From the NCBI RefSeq assembly GCF_000711225.1, contig NZ_JOMG01000002.1, forward strand, positions 1,004,501-1,068,500: a DNA stretch of 64,000 nucleotides. The letters run 5' to 3'. The translations under genes and the position numbers were made by a program. The notes under the pieces were generated by a model. That model did not search any database. It was not told the DNA's origin and saw nothing but the letters and a program-made list of their open reading frames with translations. Of the stretch, positions 12,717-41,858 are shown piece after piece. Numbering within the stretch: position 1 is the first letter of the stretch; the number at the start of each line of letters is the position of its first letter. Source of the DNA: Pelobacter seleniigenes DSM 18267. GTDB taxonomy: Bacteria; Desulfobacterota; Desulfuromonadia; Desulfuromonadales; Geopsychrobacteraceae.

Positions 12717-12926
12717 GCCAACGCCATACCGAGGTTACCCAACGCAAGAAAAATCCTTGCCACCGCCGTCCACTCCCCTGAACCATGGATTCGCGTGTGA
12801 CTTGTGATTTGAAACAGTCTGCCTTGCAGCAAAAAAATCGCCGCCATCCTTCCTTTTGGAACAAAAAAGACAGCGGCGACACCTTCCCGACCGGACAAAC
12901 AAACAGCCGGAACTTTCAGAAATTTC

Positions 12927-13826: not shown

Positions 13827-14013
13827 GGGGAAATTGCTCCTTGAATGATGACAGAAAAACAACGATAAGGTGACCAGGACGACCGCAAGTCACCAGCGTG
13901 ATGCTGGGTAGCTTAACAGGCAGCAGCAAGGCGCCGGGTCCTGGAATGGGATACGGCCAGATATATGCGGAACAGCGGTCACAGCAAAAAGAATTGTCCG
14001 GGTGGTTAGTTTT

Positions 14014-25105: not shown

Positions 25106-25154
25106 AGCCGACTGCCCTTCCGGTATCATAGCGTATTAGCAACAAGGAGAACCG

Positions 25155-26042: not shown

Positions 26043-26046
26043 CCCC

Positions 26047-26174
26047 CGGACATCACTCGAATGGCGCTCGTTTAAGAGTCGCTGGCAGCAAAACCGGGAC
26101 TGTCCCCGCACGGGGGCTGTCCCGAGTTTATTACTGCAAAGTTATTTAAACGAGGGCCATTCCGGACATCACTC
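26047..26174. mobile_element. MITE-like hairpin element between FAH and SDR, short form
   Basis: A 104-bp element (26059-26162) with 17-base terminal inverted repeats GAATGGCGCTCGTTTAA / TTAAACGAGGGCCATTC (one mismatch). It is flanked by a 12-bp direct repeat CGGACATCACTC (26047-26058 and 26163-26174) that looks like a target duplication. The centre carries the imperfect palindrome GGGACTGTCCCCG-CAC-GGGGGCTGTCCC arms at 26096-26123. No coding capacity. A 182-bp version occupies the same place at 39662-39843. Confidence 0.7.
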
Positions 26175-26193
26175 AATAAAAGGAGAAAAACTC

Positions 26194-27058: not shown

Positions 27059-27109
27059 AACCGAGCTGAATGCTGAAATTTTCCGTTTCAGCGTTCAGCT
27101 CGGTTTCTT
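27059..27109. terminator. Strong bidirectional terminator between SDR copy 1 and lyase copy 2
   Basis: A 20-base stem, 27059-27078 with 27086-27105 (one G-T wobble), a seven-base loop, T-rich sequence to the right and an A-run to the left. It sits between convergent genes and marks the border between cluster A and cluster B. Confidence 0.85.
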
Positions 27110-27193
27110 TTGAGGGGGAAAGGACGGCCTCAGAGCCGCATGGTTTGGGACCAACCGGTCTGCAACCTGCAGTTACAGATAGTCGCTCCCCGC

Positions 27194-28093
27194 TTACAGG
27201 GTCAGCTCATACCCTTTCCGGTTCAGGTATTCGACAATCTGCAGCATCTGCTCCACGGTTTTGGCATCGGCATTCATCCCCGGATGGCGCACTTTGGTGG
27301 TGCTGAACACGCCCATCCGTTTGAGCAGGTGCTTGCGCAGGGAAATGCCGATCCCCGGCTGGAACTCCCAGCGGGTCAGGGGCAGGAAATCGTAGAACAA
27401 CTCCTTGGCCGCCTCCCATTCCCCGGCCTGGGCATACTGATAAAGGCGCACCAGCAGTTCGGCATAGACGAACCCGGTCATGATTCCGACTGCGCCGAGT
27501 TGCAGTTCTTCCAGGGCATAGTTGCCACCCAGCGCCCCGAACACCTTGAGGGGCTCACCGACGCTCTGCTGCAGGGCCTGCATTTTGGCGCCGGTCGGCG
27601 GATCTTCCAGCTTGATGTACTGAACATATTCGGCACTGGCAAACATCTGCGTGATCAGCTCCACGGACATGGTGATGCCGGTCACCGCCGGGTAGTCGTG
27701 GATGATGCAGGGGATTTGTGCGGCTGCCGAGACCTGCTGGTAGTATTCCAGCAGCGGCTTGTCCTTCTGAATACCGTGGGGTCCGAGGAGCAGGGCGTCC
27801 GCCCCCAGATCACGGGCTTTGGCGGCCTGCAGCTTGGCCGGATCGGTGGCCGGAGCGCGGGTGCCGACCACCAGGTGCATCGCGGCGGGCATCCGTTTCC
27901 GGTAGAGTTTGATGATTTCGGTGCGTTCGTCGTCGGTCATTTTCGGCCCTTCGCCGAGGGCGCCCATGATGGCCAGGCCGTGGACCTTTTTTTCGGCCAT
28001 GCAGTCGATCAAACGTTCGATACTGGCGTAATCGACCGCCCCGTCATCCAGAAACGGGGTCGGGACAATCGGATAGATTCCTTTGAGTTCCAT
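27194..28093 (-). CDS. DapA/NAL-superfamily lyase, copy 2
   Basis: 299 residues, the second copy of the lyase at 12927-13826 with the same catalytic Tyr (HDYPAVTGI) and Lys (YIKLED) regions. DNA identity is about 98% within the coding region and stops abruptly at both ends. Differences include a small block near 27715-27730 (residues VSAAAQ here, VSDAAK in copy 1), and mostly silent changes elsewhere. It is the last gene of the minus-strand TRAP/ureide operon of cluster B. Probably cleaves a 2-oxo acid to pyruvate plus aldehyde. Confidence 0.88.
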   Translation of the reverse strand: MELKGIYPIVPTPFLDDGAVDYASIERLIDCMAEKKVHGLAIMGALGEGPKMTDDERTEIIKLYRKRMPAAMHLVVGTRAPATDPAKLQAAKARDLGADALLLGPHGIQKDKPLLEYYQQVSAAAQIPCIIHDYPAVTGITMSVELITQMFASAEYVQYIKLEDPPTGAKMQALQQSVGEPLKVFGALGGNYALEELQLGAVGIMTGFVYAELLVRLYQYAQAGEWEAAKELFYDFLPLTRWEFQPGIGISLRKHLLKRMGVFSTTKVRHPGMNADAKTVEQMLQIVEYLNRKGYELTL

Positions 28094-28155
28094 GTTCAGC
28101 TCCTTAACAACCGGCGGTCCATGACCGCCGAAAAAATATCATCAGCAAGCCAGCG

Positions 28156-28821
28156 TCAGCAGCCCACCATTTCTGCCGTCATCCGGGCGACCAGTCGCTG
28201 CGGACAGATCACCGGCAGGTTGCAGACACTTTTGAACACCTCGACCGCAGCCGGTTTAAAGCCCATACAATCGAGCACCACCAGCTCGACGCCAGTGTCC
28301 TTGAACGCAGCGGCAGCGCGTTGCAACGCTTCCATATCGATGGGGGCTGCCACCTGCCCGACCACGCTGAAACCTTTTTCCCGCCAGTGTCGGCAAGCCG
28401 GTTCCAGCTGCCCGGTATTGGGCGAGACAATGCCGATATTTTTCCGGGCACTGAGCCCCGTGACCACTGCCGGGACCACTCGCCCCGGATAGATGACCGG
28501 CAGCGGAGAGTTGAGGTCCGGAAAATTCCCGGCGCACATCAACACAATCACTTCGGCTCCGGCCGCGGCCAGTTCAGCGGCTTTTTGTTCCAGCAGGGGA
28601 ATCAGCCGAAGCATTGAGATTTCCCGCGTGCTGCCATCCGCCAGGATCACAAACAGCGGGTACTCCGGTGTTGTTTCAACCAGCGCATCGATCTGCGCGG
28701 TGCTCATGCCATCAAGCCCTCCCCCAGTCAGCAGCTCTGCCGCCGGGAGATGATGCCGATAGATCCCTTCAATATCCGGCCGTGGGGTCTGCCCCAGCAC
28801 CAGAATTCCTAACTTTGCCAT
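28156..28821 (-). CDS. AroM-family protein
   Basis: 221 residues from the ATG at 28821, behind AAAGGA. LGILVLGQTPRPDIEG opens the protein, followed by LADGSTREIS, VIVLMCAGNFPDL, NIGIVSPNTGQL and VELVVLDCMGF. This is the AroM pattern, related in fold to the Asp/Glu/hydantoin racemase superfamily, with the two cysteines (MCAG and DCMG) in the positions of the racemase catalytic pair. Function of AroM is unknown. Next to an allantoinase-like enzyme and a carbamoylase-like enzyme, a racemase role is attractive but inferred. Confidence 0.85.
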   Translation of the reverse strand: MAKLGILVLGQTPRPDIEGIYRHHLPAAELLTGGGLDGMSTAQIDALVETTPEYPLFVILADGSTREISMLRLIPLLEQKAAELAAAGAEVIVLMCAGNFPDLNSPLPVIYPGRVVPAVVTGLSARKNIGIVSPNTGQLEPACRHWREKGFSVVGQVAAPIDMEALQRAAAAFKDTGVELVVLDCMGFKPAAVEVFKSVCNLPVICPQRLVARMTAEMVGC

Positions 28822-28841
28822 GCTCAATCCTTTGCTGTTGG

Positions 28842-29735
28842 TTATTCTGCCACGCCAACCCTGAACCCGACCAGCCCTTCCAGCGCCTTGATCAGGGCAT
28901 GATGCCCCTCTTCACCCAACCCCTGGGCCTGCAGCGCCCGATAATACTGATACAGCTGGGCGGTGGTCGGAACCGGCACACCGTGATCGGCGGCAGCACT
29001 TAACACCGCGCTGAGGCTTTTCAGCTGCAGGTCGATGGTGAACCCCGGTGTCCAGTCGCGGCGGATCACTTGTGGCCCGCGATTGGAGAGCATCCAGCTG
29101 CCAGCCGCCCCGGCGCTGACCGCGGCCAGGGTCTTTTCCAGATCGACTCCGCCGGCCTGGGCAAACAGCAACGCTTCACTCATGATCAGGGTATGCCCGG
29201 AGGCCAGCAGCTGGTTGACCAGCTTGACGGTCTGGCCATCACCGCAACGCTCGCCAACATGAACCAGGGTCGTGCCCATGGCGGAAAAAATGGCCCGGCA
29301 TTCTTCAAAGGTGGCGGGGTCGCCGCCGACCATGATCGACAGGGTTCCCTGTTCGGCTCCTTCGCGGCTGCCGCTGACCGGGGCATCGAGCATGCGCAGC
29401 CCCTGAGCGGTCAGTCGTTCGGCGTGAGCGCGACTGTCACGCGGGCTGATGGTACTCATGTCGATGACCAGCAAGCCCGGCTGCGCTCCGCTGACCACCC
29501 CTTGCTCGGCAAACAGCAGCTGAGCAACGGCTGCGGCATCGCTGACACAAAGGATGACGACATCCGAGTCCGCGGCCAACGCCGCGGGGGTTGCCGCCGG
29601 GACCGCCCCCTGGCTCAACAGGGCGGTTGTTTTTTCGGCGCTGCGGTTCCAGACCCGCACATCAAACCCACCCTTGAGCAGGTTGGCGGCCATTCCCGCC
29701 CCCATAATACCAAGGCCGATAAAGCCGATTTTCAT
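28842..29735 (-). CDS. 3-hydroxyisobutyrate/tartronate-semialdehyde reductase-like dehydrogenase
   Basis: 297 residues of the beta-hydroxyacid dehydrogenase family. NAD(P)-binding GFIGLGIMGAGMAANL, substrate-binding DAPVSGSREGAEQGTLSIMVGG, catalytic Lys in VKLVNQLLASGHTL, and WTPGFTIDLQLKSL. Relatives reduce tartronate or succinate semialdehyde, or oxidise 3-hydroxyisobutyrate. Its start overlaps the RpiR gene stop by four bases. In allantoin pathways a tartronate-semialdehyde reductase (GlxR) is a normal partner, which fits cluster B; not proven. Confidence 0.9.
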   Translation of the reverse strand: MKIGFIGLGIMGAGMAANLLKGGFDVRVWNRSAEKTTALLSQGAVPAATPAALAADSDVVILCVSDAAAVAQLLFAEQGVVSGAQPGLLVIDMSTISPRDSRAHAERLTAQGLRMLDAPVSGSREGAEQGTLSIMVGGDPATFEECRAIFSAMGTTLVHVGERCGDGQTVKLVNQLLASGHTLIMSEALLFAQAGGVDLEKTLAAVSAGAAGSWMLSNRGPQVIRRDWTPGFTIDLQLKSLSAVLSAAADHGVPVPTTAQLYQYYRALQAQGLGEEGHHALIKALEGLVGFRVGVAE

Positions 29736-30643
29736 CCGTCGCTCTCCTCGCGGCCGGAACCCTGGGCCCCGTCACTGTTCTGATAGATAAAGGTGTCGAA
29801 GCGTTTATAAAGCAGTTCAAGGCGATCGTACTTGGCTGCCAGGGCCGCCTCCTTGCGCTCGACCATGATGGTAAGCAGGGCGTTAATCAGGGAGATGCCG
29901 GCGGTATAGGAGTCAAAAGCCGACAGCCCCGTGGTGTTGACCAGGAACAGGCAATCGGCCCAGGTTCCGGTCGGCACGATGGGCGAGTCAGCGAACACCA
30001 CCACCCTGGCCCCGACATCGCGGGCATACTGACAGGCCTTGAGATGATTGCGGGAATAGCGGCGGAAATCGAACACCACCAACACATCGTCAGGCTGCAG
30101 GTTGGCCAGCTGATCGACCAGATTGGACGGTTCGATGCGGCGTGTATCATGCCGGAAGCTGGCGATCTGGTAGCTGAAATAATGGGCCAGCGAAACTTCC
30201 TTGCGGGTTCCCAGCACGTACACCACCCGTCGCGGATCGTCGAACAGCTCGAAAAATCGCTCCACGGTCTCGGTTCCCACCGAACACATGGTATCCTGGA
30301 TATTGGCCAGATCCTGTTCCAGGGTTTTCGAGAAGACATTGTTGTTGTCCGCCTGACTGGAATGGGCATGGACGCGGTCCATGGGCGAATTGATCAAAAA
30401 ACGGATGTCTTCACGAAAATCGGCGCGCGCTTCCTTGATGTTGTCATAACCGATCTTCGGAAAGAACCGGGTCACCGTGGACGCGGTAATCTTGAGTTCC
30501 TCGGCGATCTCGGCCGCATTCTGCAGCAATCCCAACGGATAGACCCGCAGCAGATAATCGGCAATCATCCGGTCACTGGGGGTAAAACTGTCGGAATTTC
30601 TGCTGATCTTTTCGGCGAAACGATTCTTGGGATGATCCATCAT
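29732..30643 (-). CDS. MurR/RpiR-family regulator
   Basis: 303 residues from the ATG at 30643; ATG 30640 is also possible. N-terminal HTH_6 domain (SDRMIADYLLRVYPLGLLQNAAEIAEEL, ITASTVTRFFPKIGY) and C-terminal SIS sugar-phosphate-like domain (VVYVLGTRKEVSLAHYFSYQ, DDVLVVFDFRRYSR, VVVFADSPI). It lies inside the operon, between the amidase and the reductase, so probably regulates cluster B in response to a pathway intermediate. RpiR proteins regulate allantoin genes (AllR-like HpxU types) in some bacteria. Confidence 0.92.
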   Translation of the reverse strand: MMDHPKNRFAEKISRNSDSFTPSDRMIADYLLRVYPLGLLQNAAEIAEELKITASTVTRFFPKIGYDNIKEARADFREDIRFLINSPMDRVHAHSSQADNNNVFSKTLEQDLANIQDTMCSVGTETVERFFELFDDPRRVVYVLGTRKEVSLAHYFSYQIASFRHDTRRIEPSNLVDQLANLQPDDVLVVFDFRRYSRNHLKACQYARDVGARVVVFADSPIVPTGTWADCLFLVNTTGLSAFDSYTAGISLINALLTIMVERKEAALAAKYDRLELLYKRFDTFIYQNSDGAQGSGREESDG

Positions 30644-30650
30644 CGGTGGT

Positions 30651-31913
30651 TTACCCTTCGGTCTGCGCCGCGGCAATCCGCAGCAGGCTGGTTAACAGCA
30701 CCTGGCAGCCTTCGGTGGCCGCCGCCGGCGTAATTTCTTCAGCCGGATTATGACTGACTCCGTTACGGCAGGGGATAAAAATCATTCCGGTAGGGACAAA
30801 AGGCGCCAGCGATTGGGCATCATGCCCGGCGCCACTGGGCATCAAGGTCGCGGACAGCTGTTCCTGGTCGGCCGCGGCGGCGATCTGCTCGATCAGTTCG
30901 GGAGCCAACCGGACACTATCCTTTTCATAGATCGTTTCGATGTTCCAACCCTGTCGCTCGGCGGCATAGGCGAGCAAGCGATCACGAACCCGCTGCATAT
31001 CTTCGGGCTGCTGGGAACGCAATTCAACCAGAAAACGACATTGAGCCGGAACAACATTGCTGGCGCCCGGCGCGACCGTAACCTGGCCGATGGTCCCGAC
31101 CATTTCCGGGTTCTGCTCGGCAACCCACTGCGGCAACAGGGTGAACACCGGCGCGGCCTCGACCAACGCATCCTTGCGCAGCGCCATCGGCGTGGTCCCG
31201 GCGTGGGCCGCCTCACCACTGACCGTGACGATATAGCGATAAACTCCGACAATAGCGGTGACCACCCCAATATGCAGTTGTTCGCTCTCCAGCCGCCGCC
31301 CCTGCTCGATATGGAGTTCCAGGAAAGCGGCCAGTTCGGCCGGATCGCGCCGGGCTGAAGCGATCTGCTCCGGGTCCTGGCCGAGCTTGAGCAGATGCTG
31401 GATAAAGGGTTCGGCCCCTTCATTTTTGGCTTTACAGAGCTCTCCGCCCTTGAGCTGCCCCATCATCGCCCGGCTTCCCACGGTGCCGGCATTATGGGCG
31501 GCTTCTTCGTCACAGAAACTGATTACCTCGAGATCACAGGGCAGGGAGAAACCACTCTCGCGGAGACTGCGCGCGCACTCCAGGGCCGCGATGACCCCGT
31601 AGGCGCCATCAAATCGGCCCCCTTCCGGAACGGTATCAAGGTGGGAGCCCAAGGCTATTTTTTTCCTCTCGGGATGCCCTGATTGCAGAGTGCCGATGAC
31701 ATTCATGATGCCGTCCACACGCACCTCGAGCCCGGCCTCGGTCATTTTATCGATGAGCCAGAGGCGGGCCTGCTGGTCCACTGCGGACAGCGCGGGGCGG
31801 GTCACCCCGCCGTTCGGCAGGCCACCGATCCGGCCCAGTTCCAGCAGATCGGCCCAGAGCCGCTCCCCATTGATTGTTATTCTTTGCATAAGCCTTTGCA
31901 TCCTTGTGAACAC
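30651..31913 (-). CDS. M20-family amidohydrolase (N-carbamoyl-amino-acid or allantoate amidohydrolase-like)
   Basis: 420 residues from a GTG at 31913; internal ATGs at 31901 and 31889 are possible starts (INGERLW, the usual family opening, follows closely). Dizinc site: LGSHLDTVPEGGRFDGAYG, FCDEEAAHNAGTVGSR, ELHIEQG, and SGAGHDAQSLA with a C-terminal His in NGVSHNPAEE. This is the HyuC/AllC/beta-ureidopropionase family, releasing ammonia and CO2 from carbamoylated amino acids or allantoate. Stop lies 7 bp before the RpiR start. Together with the allantoinase-like gene upstream it makes a two-step ring opening and decarbamoylation. Confidence 0.9.
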   Translation of the reverse strand: MFTRMQRLMQRITINGERLWADLLELGRIGGLPNGGVTRPALSAVDQQARLWLIDKMTEAGLEVRVDGIMNVIGTLQSGHPERKKIALGSHLDTVPEGGRFDGAYGVIAALECARSLRESGFSLPCDLEVISFCDEEAAHNAGTVGSRAMMGQLKGGELCKAKNEGAEPFIQHLLKLGQDPEQIASARRDPAELAAFLELHIEQGRRLESEQLHIGVVTAIVGVYRYIVTVSGEAAHAGTTPMALRKDALVEAAPVFTLLPQWVAEQNPEMVGTIGQVTVAPGASNVVPAQCRFLVELRSQQPEDMQRVRDRLLAYAAERQGWNIETIYEKDSVRLAPELIEQIAAAADQEQLSATLMPSGAGHDAQSLAPFVPTGMIFIPCRNGVSHNPAEEITPAAATEGCQVLLTSLLRIAAAQTEG

Positions 31914-31946
31914 CCCCGCTGCCAGAGCGGGAATGGCGGGTTAAAC

Positions 31947-31975
31947 CGGTCGCCGGAAGCACCTCCCGGCGACCG
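31947..31975. repeat. Hairpin between amidohydrolase genes
   Basis: CGGTCGCCGG (31947-31956) pairs with CCGGCGACCG (31966-31975). It lies in the 71-bp gap inside the cluster B operon and has no T-run; it may adjust mRNA stability. Confidence 0.5.
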
Positions 31976-31984
31976 CTGAAGCCA

Positions 31985-33343
31985 TCAGACCGCCGGGACG
32001 TAGCAACCGTCGCCGCCCTTGGCCAGGACCTTGCCGTCGGCAAAAATGGTTTTGCCGCGCAATACGGTCCGCACCACTTTGCCCTGCACGCGCATGCCGT
32101 CATAGGGGGACCATTTGGCCGATGACTGGGTAGCGGCGGCATCAAAAACCCATTCCGCTGTCGGATCGAGAATCGCGAAATCAGCATCGGCACCAACGCT
32201 GATCGCCCCTTTACGCGGTGCCAGTTTGAAGCGCTCGGCCGGGCGTAGGGCCAGCAGCTGGGCCAGCCTCACCACACCCAGACCACGCTTGACCACACCT
32301 TCGCTGAAGAGCAGCGGCAGAATCGATTCCACTCCCGGCGCTCCGGAACCGTTGCTGAAAATATCCGGGTTGTTCTTTTTCTCCAGCGGCCAGGGGGCAT
32401 GATCTGAAGCAACCCAGTCAATCCGGCCGTCGAGCAACGCCTGCCACATCCCGGCGACCGCTTCGGCACTGCGCATCGGTGGATTGATCTTGGCAAAAGC
32501 CTTTTTCTCTGCCATATCGTCTTCGGTCAGGATCAGGTAATGGGGGCAGGTCTCCACGCTGACATTGACGCCCTGCTGCCGATACCAGTCGATCATGTCG
32601 ATGCAACGCGGGTGCGAGGCGTGATAGATATGCAGAGCCGCCCCGGTCCAATAGGCGAATTCGAGGAGCTTGCCGACCGCCAGGGTTTCGGAAATCGGCG
32701 GGCGGGTTTCGCAATGGGCTTTGGGGAAGGTCTTACCCTGCTCCCGGTAACGGCTGATCAAAGCTTCAATGATAACATCATTTTCCGCGTGAAACCCAAC
32801 GGTGAGACCGGTTTTGGCCAACTCCGGCAGAACCTCAAGGAGGACATTATCGTCGATCCGCGGAAAGCGGTAGGGGTCGGTCTCAAACGCGCTCAATTTG
32901 AACCCGCAGGCACCCAATTCCGCCAGCGGCGCAATCGCCTCGACATTCCCTTCTTTCTTCAGGGTGGCCAGCAGGGCAACATCAACTTTGGCTTTCTCAG
33001 CGATCCAGCCGATCTTCTCCCGATAGATCTCCGGAGTAAACACCGGCGCCCCCTGGTCGTAGGGCATCTCGATGATCGTCGTGACCCCGCCTGCCGCAGC
33101 CGCAGCCGTGGAATTTTCAAATTGTTCGTGGAGGTTGCTGTAGGAATGGACATGGGCATCGACCATCCCCGGAAACACCAGCTTCCCGGTCGCATCGATG
33201 GTTTCCGTCGCGGCCGGAGCTTGCTCCACGGCATAGATGCCGACAATCTTTCCGGCAACCACCCCGACACAGGACTCTTTCAGGACCCGGTCGGACAGGA
33301 CCAGATCCCCTTTAATCAATAAATCCACTGAGGATGAAGACAT
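31985..33343 (-). CDS. Allantoinase/dihydropyrimidinase-like cyclic amidohydrolase
   Basis: 452 residues from the ATG at 33343, 7 bases behind AAGGAG; an N-terminal extension to 33466 is unsupported. Metal-binding FPGMVDAHVHSY, GGVTTIIEMPYDQG, Lys in CGFKLSAFETD (position of the carbamylated bridge), HAEND, HIYHASHP, VETCPHYLILTEDDM and WVASDHAPWP follow the allantoinase order, and SPYDGMRVQGKVVRTVLRG resembles the allantoinase C-terminus. It should hydrolyse a cyclic amide such as allantoin or a hydantoin. 29 bp after dctM. Confidence 0.88.
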   Translation of the reverse strand: MSSSSVDLLIKGDLVLSDRVLKESCVGVVAGKIVGIYAVEQAPAATETIDATGKLVFPGMVDAHVHSYSNLHEQFENSTAAAAAGGVTTIIEMPYDQGAPVFTPEIYREKIGWIAEKAKVDVALLATLKKEGNVEAIAPLAELGACGFKLSAFETDPYRFPRIDDNVLLEVLPELAKTGLTVGFHAENDVIIEALISRYREQGKTFPKAHCETRPPISETLAVGKLLEFAYWTGAALHIYHASHPRCIDMIDWYRQQGVNVSVETCPHYLILTEDDMAEKKAFAKINPPMRSAEAVAGMWQALLDGRIDWVASDHAPWPLEKKNNPDIFSNGSGAPGVESILPLLFSEGVVKRGLGVVRLAQLLALRPAERFKLAPRKGAISVGADADFAILDPTAEWVFDAAATQSSAKWSPYDGMRVQGKVVRTVLRGKTIFADGKVLAKGGDGCYVPAV

Positions 33344-33372
33344 AAACAAACTCCTTCTGGTTCTTGGTACGG

Positions 33373-34695
33373 CTACCCTAACAGCAGGTTGGGCAGCCAG
33401 AGCGAAATACGGGGGAAAATGATCAGCAACGTCAAAACAATCAGGTCGCAGATACAAAACGGCCACACCCCTTTGAAGATATCTTCGATGGAAATCTTCA
33501 TCTCTTTCGGGATGACCCCCTTCATGGCAAAAACATTCAGCCCTACCGGCGGGGTGATCGAACCGATTTCAGTCAATTTCAGGGCGATGACGCCGAACCA
33601 GATGGGATCGTAGCCCAGCGCAACCAGCATCGGGAACACAATCGGCAGGGTCAGGGCATAAATCCCCACCGGCACCATGATCATGCCGAGCAGGAACATC
33701 ACCGCGAGGATGCCAAGGAGAATGACGACGCGCGGCACTTCCAGCCCCTGCAACATCATCGTCAACTCGGTGGGCAGCCGGGTCACAGCCAGAATCCGGC
33801 TGTAAAACAGCGCGCCGATATTGATCAAAAACAGCATGGCCGTGGTATTCGCCGACTCTTTCATGGCCAGGGTCACTTCACTGAACTTGCGAAAGGAGCC
33901 GAGCATCCAGCCGAACACCAGGGTGATCAGCGAGCCAGCCGCAGCCGCTTCAGTCGGCGTAAACCAGCCGGAATAGATTCCGCCCAGGACAACACCGGCA
34001 ATAATCGCCACCGGCCAGATCTGCCCGGCGTCTTTCCAGCGTTCGGCAGAGCTCCGGTAGCGCTCGGCCGCCGCCGGGGCGATCTTCGGATTGCGCTTGA
34101 CCAGAAACAGAATCATGGCCACATAGGTGAAAGCGGTCATCAGCCCGGGGACCACGCCGGCGGCAAACAGCTTGCCGACCGACTGCTGGGTAAACAGAGC
34201 GTAGATGATCATCATCATGCTCGGCGGAATCATCGACGCGAATGTCCCGGCCGAAGCGATGCACCCGGCGGAAAAAGACTTGTCATAATTCAACCGGTTC
34301 ATTTCCGGCAGGGCCATCTTGCCAAAAATGGCGGTTGTGGCGATGGAGGAACCGGACACCGCGCCGAACACCGCACAGCTGAAACAGGTGGCAATCCCCA
34401 ACGAGCCCTTCAGTCCCTGGCTCATGGCGTAGACCCCGGTATAGGCCCGCCGGGCCAGACCGCCGCCAGCGGCGAAGGCGCCCATGAGAACAAACAGGGG
34501 AATTGACGCCCAGGTCGGAGTCGCAATCGAAAAATAGGCCGCCTGGCCGAGCAAGGACAGCGAACTGTCAAAGCCGAGGAGCAGAGTGCTGACGACAATG
34601 CCGCTGAGCACAAAGGACAAGCCGATCTGCAGACCGAGGCCCATCAGCAGCAGCAATAAAAAGATACAGAGTATTCCGGCAGTTATAAAATCCAT
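33373..34695 (-). CDS. dctM: TRAP transporter large permease (DctM type)
   Basis: 440 residues, about 12 membrane segments. Family motifs: PLFVLMGAFAAGGGLARRAY, CFSCAVFGAVSGSSIATTAIFGKMALPEM, GVVPGLMTAF, YSGWFTPTEAAAAG and the late GSITPPVGLNVFAMKG. Drives sodium-coupled uptake together with DctQ and DctP. The operon order P-Q-M and the position before the allantoinase-like gene indicate that it imports the cluster B substrate. Confidence 0.96.
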   Translation of the reverse strand: MDFITAGILCIFLLLLLMGLGLQIGLSFVLSGIVVSTLLLGFDSSLSLLGQAAYFSIATPTWASIPLFVLMGAFAAGGGLARRAYTGVYAMSQGLKGSLGIATCFSCAVFGAVSGSSIATTAIFGKMALPEMNRLNYDKSFSAGCIASAGTFASMIPPSMMMIIYALFTQQSVGKLFAAGVVPGLMTAFTYVAMILFLVKRNPKIAPAAAERYRSSAERWKDAGQIWPVAIIAGVVLGGIYSGWFTPTEAAAAGSLITLVFGWMLGSFRKFSEVTLAMKESANTTAMLFLINIGALFYSRILAVTRLPTELTMMLQGLEVPRVVILLGILAVMFLLGMIMVPVGIYALTLPIVFPMLVALGYDPIWFGVIALKLTEIGSITPPVGLNVFAMKGVIPKEMKISIEDIFKGVWPFCICDLIVLTLLIIFPRISLWLPNLLLG

Positions 34696-34754
34696 AGCAA
34701 CGACCTAAGCTGAGATTTGATGAATTCCGTGGTGGTTCAGGTGGTTTCGATTGT

Positions 34755-34819
34755 GGCGCTGCACAGCGCCGTCGGCAGGTCAGCCCTGCGCAGCAGCCGG
34801 TGCCAACGGCACCGGCTGC
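34755..34819. repeat. Two hairpins between dctQ and dctM
   Basis: GGCGCTG (34755-34761)/CAGCGCC (34764-34770) and the 12-base stem 34793-34804/34808-34819 (GCAGCCGGTGCC with its complement, loop AAC). Both occupy the 132-bp gap between dctQ and dctM and may limit permease expression. Confidence 0.6.
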
Positions 34820-34827
34820 CCGGGCCT

Positions 34828-35307
34828 TCAGGCCGCGCTGTTGTTCTTCAGGAGCTTGACCAGATTACTGCCCGCCTGAAGCAGAAAGCAGACCAGGCCG
34901 CACACCATCAGTGCTTTGACCGGCCAAATCCGCAACCCCAGGGTTCCTTCCAGCGATTCGTTATTGGCATAGGAATCGAGGGTGTTCTCAAATACGGCAT
35001 AGAGCAGAATGGCGATGGTCACGATGGCCAACAGTTGGGCAATGATCATCACGACATGGCGGATCCGCCTGGGCAGGGCATTGCTGACCAGTTCCAGGCT
35101 GACGTGCTCGCCATGTTGTTCACAGCGGGCCAGGCCAAGATAGATCACAATGATCATGACAAAAACCGACAGTTCTGCCATGCCCTGCAACGGAATACCA
35201 CAGGCCCGGAAAACAATATCCGCCATCAGTAGCAGCATCATCCCCAGCATCAGAAAACCACAGAACCCGGACAGAAACTGGTTCACTTTTTCAATAATCG
35301 CCGTCAT
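34828..35307 (-). CDS. dctQ: TRAP transporter small permease (DctQ type)
   Basis: 159 residues with four membrane segments (about 12-30, 45-65, 85-107, 128-150). FRACGIPLQGMAELSVFVMIIVIYLGLARCEQHGEHVSLELV is the typical DctQ core. Lies 30 bp downstream of dctP. Confidence 0.93.
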   Translation of the reverse strand: MTAIIEKVNQFLSGFCGFLMLGMMLLLMADIVFRACGIPLQGMAELSVFVMIIVIYLGLARCEQHGEHVSLELVSNALPRRIRHVVMIIAQLLAIVTIAILLYAVFENTLDSYANNESLEGTLGLRIWPVKALMVCGLVCFLLQAGSNLVKLLKNNSAA

Positions 35308-35337
35308 ACGCTTCCCCTGCTCTGCTGTCTGCCTTGA

Positions 35338-36408
35338 TTAAAGCTCTCTCGCCATGGCCCGCTGATGAATCGCCTTGACCTTTTCCAGCACGGTCGCTGC
35401 GGTTTTCAGACCGGCGTCCTCGGCTTCCTTGACCCAGACAGCCTGCAGTTTGGCCAGATTGTCAGCATCGGCCCATTGGTCAATATCGGCTGTGGACAAT
35501 TCCGTCACCTGCGCCCCGGCCGCGATTTCCTCGGCTTTGATCTGATCGAACGCTTCGTCGTAAACCTTGGCGAATTTCTGTTCGGCAATCTCCGAAGCTT
35601 TCAGCAGCCCGGCCTGAACATCCTGCGGCAGTTTTTCAAAAGTGCTGCGATTGATCATGTGCAGAAACGGCATTCCGTACCAGAGGGATTTGGACACCAG
35701 CAGATGAGGAGCGACCTCGTCAAATTTCATCAGGTGCAGGCCGTCATAGTTGGTGAAACATCCGTCGATCGTCCCGGTCTGCAGAGACATATAGACATCG
35801 CCCCAGGGCACGGAAACCGGAGAAGCACCGACATTTTCCAGAAAACGCAGACTCCATTTATCTCCGGCACGCCACTTTTCCCCTTTGATGTCGGCCAGGC
35901 TGTTAAGCGGGTTCTTGCCGACAAAGGCGCCCGGCAGACCGGCGGTAAAGACCATGGTCATGACGTTGGCTTTTTTCAGCTCGGCCTCAAATTCGGGAAC
36001 TTCCTTGTAAACCGTGCGGTAAAACCAAATCATATCCTCAAATTTGACCGGCCCCCTTGGAAACAGCTTGAAAATGGTATGGGCCGGCATCTGACCAGGA
36101 TAGTGACCTGGGTAAACAAAACCCATCTGCGTAACGCCATCGCCGACCCCTTTCAGGATCTCTTTGGCTCCAAGCAGGGTGCCACCCCAGAAATCCTGGA
36201 TCTTCACTTTATCGCCCAGCTGGTTTTGAATTTCCTGCAACCAGACCTTTTCAACAAAACCCGTACGCATGCCATTGGGCGGATCATGATCGGAATATTT
36301 TAATTTAATGCTGCCCGCCTCAACACTGGCAACATTCAGCACCACCAGGCAGGCCATAAGAAGGGAAAAAATCAGAAACTTTCGCGATGAAGCTTGTAGG
36401 CAATTCAT
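35338..36408 (-). CDS. dctP: TRAP transporter substrate-binding protein (DctP type)
   Basis: 356 residues from the ATG at 36408, 7 bases behind GGAGG. A signal peptide covers about residues 1-31 (FLIFSLLMACLVVLNVASVEA). The mature part has IKLKYSDHDPPNGMRTGF, FWGGTLLGAKEILKGVGDG and EKWRAGDKWSLRFLENVGASPVS with the family's conserved Arg. First gene of the minus-strand cluster B operon. Its ligand, presumably a ureide or hydantoin acid, is inferred only from neighbouring enzymes. Confidence 0.93.
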   Translation of the reverse strand: MNCLQASSRKFLIFSLLMACLVVLNVASVEAGSIKLKYSDHDPPNGMRTGFVEKVWLQEIQNQLGDKVKIQDFWGGTLLGAKEILKGVGDGVTQMGFVYPGHYPGQMPAHTIFKLFPRGPVKFEDMIWFYRTVYKEVPEFEAELKKANVMTMVFTAGLPGAFVGKNPLNSLADIKGEKWRAGDKWSLRFLENVGASPVSVPWGDVYMSLQTGTIDGCFTNYDGLHLMKFDEVAPHLLVSKSLWYGMPFLHMINRSTFEKLPQDVQAGLLKASEIAEQKFAKVYDEAFDQIKAEEIAAGAQVTELSTADIDQWADADNLAKLQAVWVKEAEDAGLKTAATVLEKVKAIHQRAMAREL

Positions 36409-36813
36409 TGTCGGTCCTCCAGAACCAAAGTTGACGGGTCGTTGCTTCGGCAAGGCAAAATACCTGACCGAAGATTCCTGCAAGGCCTCTTTGCCTGAAT
36501 CCTGTTTGCGAATTCGCCTCATCGCGATTGCAATAAAAAAATCAATTTATTTTGTATCTGCAATTTTTCTATCATTCACGCAAGATACCTGTCAATGACT
36601 TTTTTAACTTTGTCAGAAAATAAAAATCAACGAATAATCATATAGATATAAGTATTTTAAAACCCTTGTGGATGCTCATTACTTGAGCAAAAACAGCTTC
36701 CCTGCTTATTTTATATGCAGAATAAAAGAGAAAAGAAACTTGACAATTCTAAGATTGTCGACAATCTTTTAACTATTGTACACAGCAAAAGAGACCCATC
36801 AGGGAGAGCCCAC
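36409..36813. promoter_or_regulatory. Divergent control region of cluster B with an 18-bp palindrome
   Basis: This AT-rich 405-bp gap separates dctP (minus) from the GntR gene (plus). AAGATTGTCGACAATCTT at 36751-36768 is a perfect 18-bp palindrome with the TTGTCGACAA-type core seen in FadR/FCD operators. TTGACA at 36740-36745 just upstream may be a -35 element. On the minus strand TTGACA at 36595-36590 with TAGAAA 18 bp further could drive dctP. No gene fits the rest. Confidence 0.6.
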
Positions 36814-37470
36814 GTGACTGAAAACAACAATCGCCCGTCTCCTTTACGAGCCGGAGATGTTCAGAAAATTATCGAAGAGCGGATCTTTTCCGGGGCACTG
36901 CAACCAGGGGATAAGGTCAATGAAAAAGCCCTGGCCGATGAGTTACAGATCAGTCGGGGACCGATCAGGGAAGCACTGAATGCTCTGCGCCACGAGGGAC
37001 TGATTGAGAGTATTCCGAACCGAGGTGGTTTTGTCAGCAGCCTGTCTGTCAAGGAGGCTCTTGATTGCTATGATGTGCGCGGCGGGCTGGCTTATACCGC
37101 GGGCAAACTGCTCCCCTTTCGGATCAGCCTTGCCCAGCTTCAGGAGCTGCGCCAGCTGCACGGGCAAATGGAAAAACTCCTCACGGCAGAGGATGTCCGC
37201 GGTTTTTACCGCATCAATGCAAGTTTTCATGCCCTGCTTTTTGAGATCACCGGAAATCAACCGCTGATCACCATGAATCATACGATCGAACGCAAACTCA
37301 GCCTCTATCTGCATCAGGAGATGTGCAATCTGGTCATTCTCAGGCGTTCCAACACTCGGCATCTGGAGATCATCAACCTGATCGCCGAAGGGCGTCCCGA
37401 AGAGACCGCCAGGGTGTTCGAAAATCACATTCTGGAAGGGAAGGAGCGGCTGCTCGAAAGCGGTCGTTAG
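36814..37470 (+). CDS. GntR-family regulator (FadR/FCD subfamily) of cluster B
   Basis: 218 residues if started at GTG 36814, which has AGGGAG seven bases upstream; an ATG at 36715 would add 33 residues but lacks a ribosome site and would swallow the palindromic operator. Winged helix: VNEKALADELQISRGPIREALNALRHEGLIESIPNRGGFV. FCD domain: YRINASFHALLFEITGNQPL. Followed by the aminotransferase gene, and divergent from the TRAP operon it probably controls. Distinct from the cluster A regulator. Confidence 0.9.
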   Translation: MTENNNRPSPLRAGDVQKIIEERIFSGALQPGDKVNEKALADELQISRGPIREALNALRHEGLIESIPNRGGFVSSLSVKEALDCYDVRGGLAYTAGKLLPFRISLAQLQELRQLHGQMEKLLTAEDVRGFYRINASFHALLFEITGNQPLITMNHTIERKLSLYLHQEMCNLVILRRSNTRHLEIINLIAEGRPEETARVFENHILEGKERLLESGR

Positions 37471-37575
37471 CAGACAATTCCGAGACCGGCCAAAGACGTC
37501 CGGCCTGACTGAATCAGCAGCCGTCCGGCGCGCGCCATGCCCGCCGCAATATCATCGTACAAAGGAAAACAAGCA

Positions 37576-38745
37576 ATGCAGATCGCAGACAGAATGGCCG
37601 AAATCCGCTTTTCCGGAATCCGGAAAATCCTTGAGCAAGTTAACCTTTTGGAAAAACAGGGGCGTCACATTATTCGCCTGGAAATCGGCCGCCCCGACTT
37701 CGACACCCCGCAGCATATTAAAGATGCCGCTATTCAAGCGCTGAACAACGGACAGGTTCATTACAGCTCTAATTACGGCATCAGCCAACTGAGTGAGGCG
37801 ATCTGCAACAAGTTGGAGACCGAGAACCGGGTGACCTATGCACCACAGGAAGTTATCGTCACCGCCGGCGCCAACGAAGCGGTGTTCATCGCCATGATGG
37901 CCCTGCTCAACCCCGGTGACGAAGTGCTGATTCCGGATCCCTGCTGGGTGGCCTATCATCCCTGCGCTACAATGGCCGGGGCCACCCCGGTTTCGGTTCC
38001 ACTTCATTTTGCCAAGGGTTTTGTCCCCCAGGTCGAAGATATCGCCGCACAGATTACCCCGAAGACCCGCATGCTGGTCATCAACACTCCGCAAAACCCG
38101 ACCGGCGTGGTCTATGGCCCCGAAACCTTGCAAAAGTTGGCGCAGCTGGCCGTCGAACACAATCTTTATGTGCTCTCCGACGAAATCTACGAGCGGATCA
38201 TCTACGACGGTGCCCGTCATGTCAGTATCGCCACCTTTCCGGGCATGCGCGAACGGACCGTCATCATCAACGGCATGTCGAAAATCTTTTCCATGACCGG
38301 CTGGCGGCTGGGCTACGCCGCTGCGGACCGGCCCTTGACCGATGCCATGATCCGCATCCATCAGAACACCATGGCCTGCGCCACCAGCTTTGCCCAGTGG
38401 GGAGGGGTCGCTGCCCTGAACGGCCCCCAGCAACCAGCCGAAGAGATGGTGGCCGAGTTCAAACGCCGGCGCAATTTCCTCTACCAGGCGCTGCAGGAGA
38501 TGCCGGGAGTGCGCCCGGTCCACCCCAGCGGGGCGTTCTACCTGTTTGTCAACATCGAGGAACTGGGTCGCAGTTCCGAAGAGGTTGCCATGCACCTGTT
38601 GGAGAAAGCCGGGGTCGCTGTGGTTCCCGGATCCTCCTTCGGCCGCTTTGGCGAGGGCTGCCTGCGCATCTCCTACGCCAACTCTTATGAAAATCTCGAA
38701 ATTGCTGTCGACCGAATGAGTCGGGCACTGCGAGAACTGAACTGA
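37576..38745 (+). CDS. Class I/II PLP-dependent aminotransferase
   Basis: 389 residues from the ATG at 37576 (AAGGA nine bases upstream). Aspartate-aminotransferase fold: IRLEIGRPDFDTPQHIKDAA, VTAGANEAVFIAMMALLNPGDEVLIPDPCW, NTPQNPTGVVY, LSDEIYERIIYDG, and the PLP lysine in INGMSKIFSMTGWRLGY. Converts an amino acid into its 2-oxo acid. Stop lies 12 bp before FAH copy 2, so the amino acid released by the carbamoylase-like enzyme could pass through this step into the shared lower pathway. Confidence 0.93.
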   Translation: MQIADRMAEIRFSGIRKILEQVNLLEKQGRHIIRLEIGRPDFDTPQHIKDAAIQALNNGQVHYSSNYGISQLSEAICNKLETENRVTYAPQEVIVTAGANEAVFIAMMALLNPGDEVLIPDPCWVAYHPCATMAGATPVSVPLHFAKGFVPQVEDIAAQITPKTRMLVINTPQNPTGVVYGPETLQKLAQLAVEHNLYVLSDEIYERIIYDGARHVSIATFPGMRERTVIINGMSKIFSMTGWRLGYAAADRPLTDAMIRIHQNTMACATSFAQWGGVAALNGPQQPAEEMVAEFKRRRNFLYQALQEMPGVRPVHPSGAFYLFVNIEELGRSSEEVAMHLLEKAGVAVVPGSSFGRFGEGCLRISYANSYENLEIAVDRMSRALRELN

Positions 38746-38757
38746 CAAGGAGAACCG

Positions 38758-39645
38758 ATGAGATTAGCCACCATCAGAATCAAAGGCCTGGAGACCGCGG
38801 CCATCGTCCAGGACGAGTTGGTCACCACCCTGGCCAGCATCAATGAACAGCTCGGCTCAGACTGGCCCACCGACATCCTCGCCCTGCTCCAGCAGGACCG
38901 CCTTGCACCCCTGAACGCCTGGTATCGCGCCGGCGGCCGGGACCAGGTCGCCGCCCTGTCCGGGCACGCCATTCCCCTGGCCGAGGCCAGCTTCGCTCCG
39001 CTCTACCGTACCCCCAGAAAGATCTTCGGCATCGGCCTGAACTATGTCGACCATGCCGCCGACCTGGCGGAGAAGGCCCCGAGCACTGAGCCGGCCAGCT
39101 TCTTCAAGCCGGATACCACCATCATCGGGCCGGGCGATGCCATCAAAATCCCGCTGCAGTCCGAAGGCACCACGGCCGAGGCGGAACTGGGCGTGATCTT
39201 CGGCAAGGAATGTGTCGATGTCGAACGCGCCGACTGGCTGAGCGTGGTTGCGGGTTTCACCACCATCATCGATATGACCGCCGAGGATATCCTCCGCCGC
39301 AACCCGCGCTACCTGACTCTGTCGAAAAGCTTCGAGAGCTTCTTCAGCTTCGGGCCCCAGCTGGTCACCCCGGATGAGATCGAGGACGTCATGCAGCTCA
39401 AGGTGGCGACCATCCATAACGGCCGGGTCCATGCCGAGAATGTGGTGGCCAACATGACTTTCCCGCCGGATTTCCTGGTCTCGTTCCATTCCCAGGTCAT
39501 GAAGATGTACCCCGGCGATATCATCTCCACCGGCACCCCGCGGGCGGTCCATATCAGTCATGGCGATCAGGTCGCCTGCCGCATCGACGGCTTCGCACCG
39601 CTGGAGTGCCCGGTCATCGATAAGAAAACCCTCCGGGACAGTTAG
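38758..39645 (+). CDS. FAH-family hydrolase, copy 2
   Basis: 295 residues, identical in protein sequence to the gene at 25155-26042. Sequence identity begins just before the ribosome site (CAAGGAGAACCG) and does not include the sequence further upstream. Same motifs: FGIGLNYVDHAAD, EAELGVIFGKE, PGDIISTGTPRAV. Here it is preceded by an aminotransferase rather than the UxaA pair, meaning both upper pathways feed the same enzyme. Candidate reactions: diketo-acid hydrolysis or ureidoglycolate lysis. Confidence 0.9.
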   Translation: MRLATIRIKGLETAAIVQDELVTTLASINEQLGSDWPTDILALLQQDRLAPLNAWYRAGGRDQVAALSGHAIPLAEASFAPLYRTPRKIFGIGLNYVDHAADLAEKAPSTEPASFFKPDTTIIGPGDAIKIPLQSEGTTAEAELGVIFGKECVDVERADWLSVVAGFTTIIDMTAEDILRRNPRYLTLSKSFESFFSFGPQLVTPDEIEDVMQLKVATIHNGRVHAENVVANMTFPPDFLVSFHSQVMKMYPGDIISTGTPRAVHISHGDQVACRIDGFAPLECPVIDKKTLRDS

Positions 39646-39649
39646 CCCC

Positions 39650-39855
39650 CGGACATCACTCGAATGGCGCTCGTTTAAGAGTCGCTGGCAGCAAAACCGG
39701 GACTGTCCCCGCACGGGGGCTGTCCCAGGTCTTTGCGGTGCGAACCGCACCAGTTTCATGGCTCGCAAACTCTTGGGACAGCCCCCGAGAACCCTGCGGA
39801 CAGTCCCGAGTTTACTGCAAAGTTATTTAAACGAGGGCCATTCCGGACATCACTC
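39650..39855. mobile_element. MITE-like hairpin element between FAH and SDR, long form
   Basis: A 182-bp element (39662-39843) with the same 17-base terminal inverted repeats and the same 12-bp flanking repeats (39650-39661 and 39844-39855) as at 26059. Inside, GGGACTGTCCCCGCA pairs with TGCGGACAGTCCC and GGGGGCTGTCCCA with TGGGACAGCCCCC, giving a long hairpin around a loop that carries its own GGTGCG/CGCACC stem. The shorter copy 1 looks like this form with most of one arm and the loop deleted between CTGTCCC/CAGTCCC repeats. Confidence 0.7.
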
Positions 39856-39874
39856 AATAAAAGGAGAAAAACTC

Positions 39875-40663
39875 ATGGATTTAGGATTGAAAGACAAGGG
39901 GGTCATTGTTATGGCCTCCAGTTCGGGACTGGGCAAGGCGGTCGCCTGCGAATTCGCCCGCGAACAGGCCAAGGTCATGCTGTTCAGCCCCTTTGAGGAT
40001 CAGCTCAAAGAAGCCCAGGCCGAGATCAAGGCGGAAACCGGCAACGCCCCGGAATACTTTGTCGGGGATATCACCAAAGCCGAGGACATCAAACAGCTGG
40101 TCGCCACCACCGTGGCCAAATTCGGCGGGGTCTATGCCCTGGTCAACAACACCGGTGGTCCGCCGGCCGGCACCTTTGATGCCTTTGACGACGAAACCTG
40201 GCAGAAAGCCTATGAGCTGACCCTGCTCTCCTATGTCCGCGCGGTCCGCGAAGTGCTGCCGCACATGCGCGCCGCGGGCACGGGGCGGATTCTCTGCTCG
40301 ACCTCGTCATCGATCAAGGCGGTGCTCGACAACCTGATCCTGTCCAACACCTTCCGCAGCGGCGTCGTCGGCCTGGCCAAGACCCTCTCCCAGGAACTGG
40401 GCAAGGACGGCATCCTGGTCAATGTCATCGCCCCGGGGCGGATCGGCACCGCGCGGATCGACCAGCTCGACCAGATCCGCGCCGACAAGGCGGGAATTTC
40501 GGTGGAGCAGCTGCAACAGAACACCTTCAAGACCATTCCGCTGGGACGCTACGGTGAACCGGCCGAGTACGGCAAGCTGTCGGCGTTCCTCTGTTCCGAA
40601 GCCAACACCTACATCACCGGCCAGTCGGTCCTGGTCGACGGGGGGCTGGTCAAGGCCCTGTAA
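39875..40663 (+). CDS. Atypical short-chain dehydrogenase, copy 2
   Basis: 262 residues, identical in protein to the gene at 26194-26982 with scattered silent differences (for example near 39979, 40155 and 40456). Cofactor motif ASSSGLG and NNTGG present; the YxxxK site again reads SNTFR, so both copies keep the altered active site. Sequence identity ends at the stop codon. Last gene of cluster B. Confidence 0.88.
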   Translation: MDLGLKDKGVIVMASSSGLGKAVACEFAREQAKVMLFSPFEDQLKEAQAEIKAETGNAPEYFVGDITKAEDIKQLVATTVAKFGGVYALVNNTGGPPAGTFDAFDDETWQKAYELTLLSYVRAVREVLPHMRAAGTGRILCSTSSSIKAVLDNLILSNTFRSGVVGLAKTLSQELGKDGILVNVIAPGRIGTARIDQLDQIRADKAGISVEQLQQNTFKTIPLGRYGEPAEYGKLSAFLCSEANTYITGQSVLVDGGLVKAL

Positions 40664-41757: not shown

Positions 41758-41858
41758 GTCAGCATGATGACTTTTTCTTTTGCTTTGTTTGTCTCCGCTA
41801 AAAAGGATTCTCCTGCTGAGGGATTTCTTCTTTTCGAGCATTCTCCCGACAGGCATCA

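Follow-up and report, generated by a model that had tools for sequence, protein, structure and literature searches.

A stretch of 64,000 nucleotides from the genome of Pelobacter seleniigenes DSM 18267 (contig NZ_JOMG01000002.1, positions 1,004,501 to 1,068,500; hereafter referred to as the window) contains a minus-strand operon that combines a TRAP transporter with a cyclic amidohydrolase (Hyd), an M20-type amidohydrolase (Carb) and the AroM protein. The genome of this host comprises 5.09 Mb on 6 contigs and is estimated to be 100% complete, with 2% contamination. A first-pass annotation of the window had placed a probable undescribed pathway for a cyclic ureide or hydantoin, encoded by one regulated unit, between positions 28156 and 38745. 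All the genes it named are present in this interval as open frames with clear family matches; however, they form a pair of divergent units under separate regulators (RpiR and GntR), and both runs extend further than the slightly too narrow span proposed. The minus-strand run passes position 28156 into DapA_2, 62 bp away, and ends before a strong terminator-like stem. It consists of the following features, given with their scores against family models:

35338..36408, minus strand: DctP, TRAP solute-binding protein (PF03480, 115 bits); the start was set at the ATG preceding the signal peptide, the longest open reading frame extending to 36522
34828..35307, minus strand: DctQ, TRAP small permease (PF04290, 87 bits)
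33373..34695, minus strand: DctM, TRAP large permease (PF06808, 281 bits; TIGR00786, 285 bits, over the cut-off)
31985..33343, minus strand: Hyd, ErtD-like cyclic amidohydrolase, putatively ring-opening (NF058539, 526 bits, cut-off 650)
30651..31913, minus strand: Carb, M20 L-carbamoylase-type amidohydrolase (TIGR01879, 362 bits, cut-off 204; NF006771, 414 bits, over the cut-off)
29732..30643, minus strand: RpiR/SIS-domain regulator (PF01380 and PF01418); the start was set at an ATG, the longest open reading frame extending to 30676
28842..29735, minus strand: GarR-like beta-hydroxyacid dehydrogenase (TIGR01505, 284 bits, cut-off 340.75)
28156..28821, minus strand: AroM, proposed hydantoin racemase/epimerase (PF07302, 167 bits, gathering score 23.8, which it passes)
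27194..28093, minus strand: DapA_2, member of the Schiff-base lyase family and last gene of the operon (PF00701, 107 bits)
27059..27105, no strand assigned: terminator-like stem of 20 pairs between SDR_1 and DapA_2, with a T-rich tail on the plus strand

All three TRAP subunits exceed their Pfam cut-offs. When the proteins of the window were compared with 80 named loci (matches covering less than 45% of the query being dropped), the order DctP-DctQ-DctM-Hyd-Carb-RpiR-AroM was found again twice: Photobacterium pectinilyticum (L023) has it as such, and a metagenome-assembled genome (MAG) of the Calditrichota (L024) has it with GarR inserted after RpiR and before AroM. A Desulfobacterales MAG (L025) possesses DctQ-DctM-Hyd-RpiR-GarR and lacks Carb, a deltaproteobacterial MAG (L078) has DctPQM-Hyd-RpiR-AroM, together with an ErtE over its cut-off (536 bits) on the other strand and a desulfurase (583 bits), and in L027 and L031 the pair Hyd-Carb is accompanied by DctPQM on the opposite strand. 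Four deltaproteobacterial MAGs contain a partial core, and identities across the core proteins range from 47 to 80%. Six further core loci encode a DctM with 74-80% identity to that of the window, five a DctP with 62-67%, and both L024 and L025 a GarR with 68%; the locus of Salinicoccus (L069) is more distant (DctM 54%, Hyd 41%, DctP 40%). Among the eight loci with this type of TRAP transporter, the window included, RpiR is found in 5 (the others being L023, L024, L025 and L078), AroM in 4 and GarR in 3. Since the same gene order recurs in other phyla, it is not a product of chance, and we reject a fortuitous gene neighborhood as its explanation. L078 also contains apparent TAXI-type TRAP genes, and can be viewed as a bridge between the TRAP type of the window and the Ert systems of ergothioneine catabolism.

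The distribution of the operon is patchy. Of 395 genomes from the phylum, 8 (host included) encode Hyd at E<=1e-90, as do 1 of 247 Vibrionaceae genomes and 1 of 40 Calditrichota genomes, the latter two being solely the copies already known; among the 60 nearest genomes, five have a match at E<=1e-60, one of which is the host, and the other four proteins are 33-35% identical. This pattern suggests lateral spread of the operon. No description of it was found in titles and abstracts, a search to which subscription papers were mostly inaccessible.

Among curated protein models, Hyd matches best that of ErtD, the hydantoin-5-propionate amidohydrolase of ergothioneine catabolism (526 bits, versus 344.4 bits for AllB). 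Its relatives were taken from the 80 top-ranking loci out of 500 confirmed ones; the search patterns favor close kin (GACGFKLS, one such pattern, immediately precedes the gate loop discussed below), and the motif counts hold for that sample. A thiourocanate hydratase or thiohydantoin desulfurase is encoded in the flank of 46 of the 80 loci, where flanks of <=10 kb were labeled; among the 21 loci labeled as having none are short contigs, as well as L071-L074, in which a HAL-type gene alone is present. In a tree of 85 rows, whose outgroup forms one clade (100/100) and in which some long rows join doubtfully, Hyd pairs with the protein of L023 (100/99), then with those of L024 and L025 (100/97), and then with that of L078 (100/98), and lineages from Ert clusters branch on either side of this group.

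Hyd keeps residues H63, H65, K148, H184, H240 and D313 (numbered without the initiator Met), which we take, from the superfamily, to be the metal ligands; Lys148 presumably corresponds to the carboxylated metal ligand of D-hydantoinases, and the loop directly after it presumably lines the side-chain pocket. The first metal-binding His position is occupied by Gln in 20 of the 81 aligned family members. The gate loop after Lys148 reads F[EN]TDxxRFP[RK]I in most members of the family; the motif RFP[RKQ] is present in 79 and Arg158 in 80 of the 81 proteins. Six other cyclic amidohydrolases encoded by the host and its relatives all lack the motif, as do one L-hydantoinase and two allantoinases that were aligned. 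We infer from this conservation that Arg158 may bind a carboxylate of the substrate side chain. Membership of Hyd in the ErtD family, together with the kept Arg residue of the gate loop, hence argues that the side chain of its substrate is probably acidic.

Carb belongs to the hydantoinase/carbamoylase amidase family, as it clearly passes TIGR01879, and keeps ten out of ten active-site residues checked. Its best match in the PDB is an N-carbamoyl-L-amino acid hydrolase (3n5f, 264 bits), followed by an N-carbamoyl-beta-alanine amidohydrolase (8c46, 214 bits), the solved AllC (191 bits) and yeast-type beta-alanine synthase (162 bits). The match to 8c46, along with that of Hyd to the D-hydantoinase/dihydropyrimidinase model (280 bits, cut-off 393), might be taken to indicate a pathway for dihydropyrimidines or another nucleobase-derived ureide; however, Carb is nearer to 3n5f than to 8c46 or the yeast-type enzyme, and Hyd is far nearer to ErtD, so that such a pathway appears highly improbable.

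If the substrate of Hyd is a hydantoin, it could be made within the cell or imported. No member of the urocanase (hutU) family was detected in the host genome with TIGR01228, a model that also detects a thiourocanate hydratase (744 bits), nor was a thiohydantoin desulfurase with NF058529; HAL-type lyases (ergothionase) were not searched for there. A complete ergothioneine pathway in the host is rejected, both upstream genes searched for being missing. Of seven genomes searched, five contain a urocanase-family gene, the host and the genome of L027 being those without, and one, that of L078, encodes a thiohydantoin desulfurase over the cut-off, in addition to lower-scoring urocanase-family matches (627 and 431 bits). 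Because the host lacks both a urocanase-family gene and the desulfurase, the ring is probably imported, and its internal formation by these known routes seems unlikely from the gene complement.

The candidate for this import is the TRAP system. The Arg residue in the WRA stretch of the DctP motif KWRAGDKW is invariant in seven sequences and occupies what we take to be the usual carboxylate-binding place of TRAP proteins. The nearest structures to DctP are two Desulfovibrio TRAP proteins, followed by binders of cinnamate, coumarate and aromatic acids; sialic-acid binders score nearly as high as the aromatic-acid binders, and the fold search for DctP therefore carries little weight. A ligand of Dde_0634 was looked for and none was found. 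Ring intermediates of ergothioneine-type chemistry do circulate between microbes; a precedent, in the accessible part of the report, is the cross-feeding of thiourocanic acid among gut bacteria (PMC13405746).

The suggestion of the first-pass annotation that AroM has a racemase-like fold is borne out by Foldseek and VIA-align searches with its AlphaFold model (predicted local distance difference test score, pLDDT, 93). The top Foldseek match is the hydantoin racemase 2eq5 (E 9.9e-8); in VIA-align, the arylmalonate decarboxylase 3dg9 (Z 17.4) ties with 2eq5 (16.7), and an allantoin racemase follows (15.6). The model thus assigns AroM to the Asp/Glu/hydantoin-racemase fold, which decarboxylases and isomerases match as well as racemases do. 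Residues C96 and C185, presumably the catalytic Cys pair of this fold, are kept without exception in an alignment of five AroM proteins with identities as low as 26%, and both are found in seven of eight: two further intact genes keep them, and the first is missing from a broken copy in L122. Furthermore, in L027 a HyuE-type racemase (PF01177, 196 bits) is encoded after Carb. Given its predicted fold, its Cys pair and this HyuE-type racemase beside Hyd-Carb, we propose that AroM would act as a racemase or epimerase of the imported hydantoin.

AroM was detected at E<=1e-15 in 5 of 297 genomes of the phylum, host included. Two of three AroM contexts that were opened (L120, L121) contain DUF1177-like genes, named from sequence; an Asp/Glu-racemase-like gene (L120), a DUF917-like gene (L121) and apparent peptide ABC transporters are found beside them. 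In the accessible part of PMC11055893, AroM is reported to adjoin hydantoin racemase and DUF917 genes and to have a racemase-like predicted structure, and the family is called uncharacterized.

Taken together, the genes present, their homology and conserved residues, the recurrence of the core in distant taxa and the absence of the upstream ergothioneine genes searched for lead us to the view, held as probable though far from certain, that the core of the operon serves the TRAP-fed catabolism of a hydantoin substituted at C5 with a short acidic side chain; the simplest candidate would be hydantoin-5-propionate, or else a close relative of it. Its reactions and its substrate are what we infer from these data. 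In the proposed sequence, DctPQM would import the acidic hydantoin, as the Arg residue of DctP and the gene order suggest; AroM would racemize the C5 center; Hyd would open the ring in the fashion of ErtD to an N-carbamoyl-L-amino acid, which would be N-carbamoyl-L-glutamate if the substrate is hydantoin-5-propionate; and Carb would remove the carbamoyl moiety, releasing NH3 and CO2. In the host, an aminotransferase (AT) of the divergent unit may then yield a 2-oxo acid for lower-pathway enzymes (DapA, FAH, SDR) shared with a nearby cluster for hydroxy acids (cluster A).

Several observations weigh against this interpretation. Hyd remains below the ErtD equivalog cut-off (526 versus 650 bits); this cut-off is strict, as the ErtD proteins of real Ert clusters in L033 (Aeribacillus) and L037 (Cohnella) score just 534 and 513 bits (the L033 cluster includes a thiourocanate hydratase with 1037 bits, cut-off 930, a thiohydantoin desulfurase with 628 bits, cut-off 440, and an ErtE with 570 bits, cut-off 520). 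No biochemistry of this Hyd clade was found in the literature. Carb misses the ErtE equivalog cut-off (405 versus 520 bits) and, in a tree in which some long rows join doubtfully, forms a clade with the proteins of L023, L024, L027 and L031 (100/99), separate from ErtE. According to the counts given above, neither AroM nor GarR is a fixed part of the loci with this TRAP type. Glutamate as the product would make DapA, FAH, SDR, GarR and a dedicated aminotransferase unnecessary; with AT, GarR and DapA present, more than one substrate would fit. AllA homologues are encoded in the genomes of L023 and L025, two of seven that were searched, and two Bacillales loci, described below, contain a PuuE-like gene (L068; 339 bits, cut-off 424.6) or a similar gene of the polysaccharide-deacetylase family (Polysacc_deac_1) between the TRAP genes (L042).

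The latter two observations would suit a variant of the allantoin pathway, as would the score of Hyd against AllB, which is close to the cut-off (344.4 versus 357.85 bits), and the fact that allantoin racemases possess the fold predicted for AroM. Carb, however, stays far below the AllC cut-off (257 versus 597.75 bits), the gate loop of Hyd is unlike that of the two aligned allantoinases, and the absence of AllA, noted by the first-pass annotation, holds for the whole host genome (PF04115). We therefore deem an allantoin pathway very unlikely; the earlier preference for a substituted hydantoin over allantoin was right in kind. Both the allantoin and the dihydropyrimidine readings fared worse in curated cut-offs, PDB neighbors and genome searches than import of an acidic hydantoin.

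In a narrower form of the acidic-hydantoin reading, hydantoin-5-propionate formed by other organisms from histidine or ergothioneine would simply be scavenged and converted to L-glutamate, NH3 and CO2, and DapA, FAH, SDR, GarR and AT would serve cluster A or other jobs. The ErtD-like Hyd with its gate-loop Arg residue agrees with this, as do the operon of L023, which lacks DapA, FAH, SDR and GarR, and the presence of an ErtE over the cut-off in L078 and in four of the Bacillales TRAP loci. The position of the host Carb apart from ErtE, which is the main weakness of a plain hydantoin-5-propionate pathway, speaks against it, and so does the placement of GarR inside the operons of the window, L024 and L025 and of DapA at the end of the window's operon. 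We hold this form to be possible, yet somewhat doubtful.

The genes for AT, GntR, DapA, FAH and SDR lie outside the recurring core. The unit divergent from the operon, in which the FAH and SDR genes (38758-40663) continue the run, starting 12 bp after AT, comprises:

36715..37470, plus strand: GntR/FCD regulator of the divergent unit (PF00392 and PF07729)
37537..38745, plus strand: AT, aspartate-type aminotransferase (NF041091, 388 bits, below the cut-off of 550)
38758..39645, plus strand: FAH-family hydrolase, copy 2 (copy of 25155-26042; copy 1 matches PF01557)
39875..40663, plus strand: SDR dehydrogenase, copy 2 (copy of 26194-26982)

The region around SDR_2 is rich in acid-catabolism genes; after SDR_2, positions 40873-43193 of the window encode a regulator that is AraC-like by its sequence, and an MFS transporter of the galactonate type, which scores 352 bits (cut-off 395).

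Three genes occur twice in the window in nearly identical form. The DapA repeat (12926-13827 versus 27193-28094; genes 12927-13826 and 27194-28093) has 98.2% DNA identity, the FAH repeat (25142-26123 versus 38745-39726) 99.7%, and the SDR repeat (26119-26982 versus 39803-40663) 98.4%; the two FAH proteins do not differ in a single amino acid, and neither do the SDR proteins, whose genes have 11 silent differences. The start of the FAH repeat coincides with the ribosome-binding site; the DapA repeat corresponds almost exactly to the gene itself. Altogether, the copies differ at 26 silent and 4 non-silent nucleotides; about three quarters of random changes would be expected to be non-silent, and both gene sets hence appear to be maintained. 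The duplicated DapA, FAH and SDR genes, placed around two different cassettes, give the impression of a common lower pathway preserved through selection or gene conversion.

The first DapA/FAH/SDR set frames cluster A, with genes for a 2-hydroxyacid dehydrogenase, IlvD-type and galactarate-dehydratase-type proteins, a nickel-pincer isomerase and a Tct transporter named from sequence and position. Cluster C, distant from both A and the gene cluster under study (cluster B), lies elsewhere in the host genome (L133, C2:1974000-1993999) and contains a third DapA gene (87%), TctA- and TctC-like genes, a nickel-pincer-type isomerase gene whose product is 40% identical to that of cluster A, and RraA-, GlcD- and GlcF-like genes recognized by their first residues. 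Clusters A, B and C would thus appear to feed related 2-oxo acids into the same enzymes. DapA_2 has Lys161 and Tyr134, presumably the Schiff-base pair of DapA proteins, and its best solved relatives are an unassigned homologue (3dz1) and then L-2-keto-3-deoxyarabonate dehydratases; the best PDB match of AT is an archaeal aspartate aminotransferase (1gd9).

There are weak signs that tie some of the non-core genes to Hyd elsewhere. The AT of the window was not found in any other core locus; beside the operon of L023, and divergent from DctP, lies an aminotransferase gene of another subfamily (25% identical) with a RidA-type gene. A search of six other core genomes for DapA at E<=1e-50 gave no match; L061, L063 and L065, three Bacillota MAGs related to one another, carry a DapA gene (48-49% identical) next to Hyd, and in L079 an SDR (63% identical) is encoded 6 kb from Hyd. 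Of the route claimed by the first-pass annotation, import, perhaps racemization, ring opening and decarbamoylation are supported in kind; for transamination and reduction, the distribution of AT and GarR lends no such support.

If AT, DapA and SDR do belong to the route, the amino acid formed would be other than plain glutamate; these enzymes would suit a 4-hydroxy form of it. A hydroxylated acidic hydantoin such as hydantoin-5-lactate would yield 4-hydroxyglutamate, which AT would convert to 4-hydroxy-2-oxoglutarate, DapA to pyruvate and glyoxylate, and GarR would reduce the glyoxylate; clusters A and C would feed the same type of skeleton from hydroxy acids. The near-identical DapA, FAH and SDR genes that accompany clusters A and B, with their excess of silent differences, the third DapA in cluster C together with the nickel-pincer-type isomerase, RraA- and GlcD-like genes, and the DapA-type gene adjoining Hyd in the three Bacillota MAGs are in line with this idea. 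On the other side, the nearest PDB relatives of DapA with an assigned reaction, besides dihydrodipicolinate synthase, are the L-2-keto-3-deoxyarabonate dehydratases, no hydroxyoxoglutarate aldolase being listed; the six core genomes mentioned lack the window's DapA at E<=1e-50; and no source of such a hydantoin came to light, although none was sought in print. We judge a hydroxylated substrate to be unlikely, and slightly more so its fully specified version, in which hydantoin-5-lactate, i.e., ring-oxidized imidazolelactate, would be imported by the TRAP system, racemized by AroM, opened by the ErtD-like enzyme and decarbamoylated to 4-hydroxyglutamate, and AT and a DapA-type aldolase, part of a set also fed by the hydroxy acids of clusters A and C, would release pyruvate and glyoxylate.

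The association of TRAP transport with ErtD-like enzymes is not confined to the type found in the window. In seven Bacillales loci (L042, L049, L050, L052, L059, L062, L068), another TRAP permease, with a DctM 29-32% identical to that of the window, is encoded shortly before ErtD-like and ErtE-like genes; there is no AroM match, and upstream Ert genes are absent from the flank. All four carbamoylases scanned from these loci pass the ErtE cut-off of 520 (542-577 bits). A thiourocanate hydratase or desulfurase over the cut-off was found in none of the eight TRAP-bearing genomes (those of the seven Bacillales loci and L069), both positive controls (L033, L034) being positive; seven of the eight contain lower-scoring urocanase-family matches (250-710 bits, most near 700), and those near 700 bits are taken to be ordinary urocanases. 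No description of these Bacillales loci was found in the literature. Because two different TRAP subfamilies are involved, TRAP transport has probably been joined to ErtD/ErtE-type enzymes more than once, with at least two origins.

A few further arrangements were seen among the loci. A gene of the MmgE/PrpD family lies between Hyd and the carbamoylase in L069 (11357-12682, assigned through Pfam) and L064 (2060-3442, by its first residues), and might represent a further epimerase replacement. In Mesorhizobium (L088:2746-6345), DapA-like (31%), HyuE-like (36%) and second hydantoinase-like (30%) genes stand in a row beside an Ert cluster. The host genome encodes a further cyclic amidohydrolase homologue (L003, C5:433067-434320) with one in-frame TAG.

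Should the assignment of the operon to an acidic hydantoin be correct, ErtD/ErtE chemistry would not be tied to ergothioneine and would be coupled to TRAP importers in several phyla, acid-bearing hydantoins would be suggested as a shared nutrient pool, and AroM, called uncharacterized in the accessible part of PMC11055893, would gain a concrete substrate class. The term undescribed, used for the pathway by the first-pass annotation, applies to the operon, for which we found no description; it does not apply to the chemistry of Hyd and Carb, which is that of the last two steps of ergothioneine catabolism, and PMC11055893, as far as accessible, already links AroM to hydantoin-type clusters.

Compared with known systems, allantoin utilization (AllB, AllC, AllA) draws its ring-opening and ureide-hydrolyzing enzymes from the same superfamilies; it differs in that the AllB and AllC cut-offs are missed here and AllA is absent from the host genome. 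The Hyu system consists of a hydantoinase, an L-carbamoylase and the racemase HyuE, and is alike in racemase, ring opening and decarbamoylation, L027 even possessing a HyuE-type protein after Carb; unlike it, the operon has AroM in place of HyuE, a gate loop of the ErtD type, and TRAP import. The Bacillales loci share the TRAP, ErtD-like and ErtE-like genes and the lack of the upstream Ert genes searched for, but differ in their TRAP subfamily, in the ErtE over the cut-off in the four scanned, and in having no AroM match. Cyclodipeptide-oxidase-like clusters also contain AroM, yet, in the accessible part of PMC11055893, center on the oxidase, and not on TRAP, ErtD-like and M20 proteins as is the case here. 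A further counterpart is formed by the last two steps of ergothioneine catabolism (ErtD/ErtE; NF058538, NF058539, NF058540), with the same order of enzymes, an ErtD-family hydantoinase followed by an M20 L-carbamoylase, and a gate-loop motif common to both; L078 has parts of both systems. The operon is set apart from it by a host without urocanase-type hydratase and desulfurase, by the TRAP importer, by a carbamoylase of another clade, and by the addition of AroM, RpiR and GarR. The operon is hence a variation on known chemistry, in which a hydantoin with an acidic side chain would be handled by an ErtD-like enzyme.

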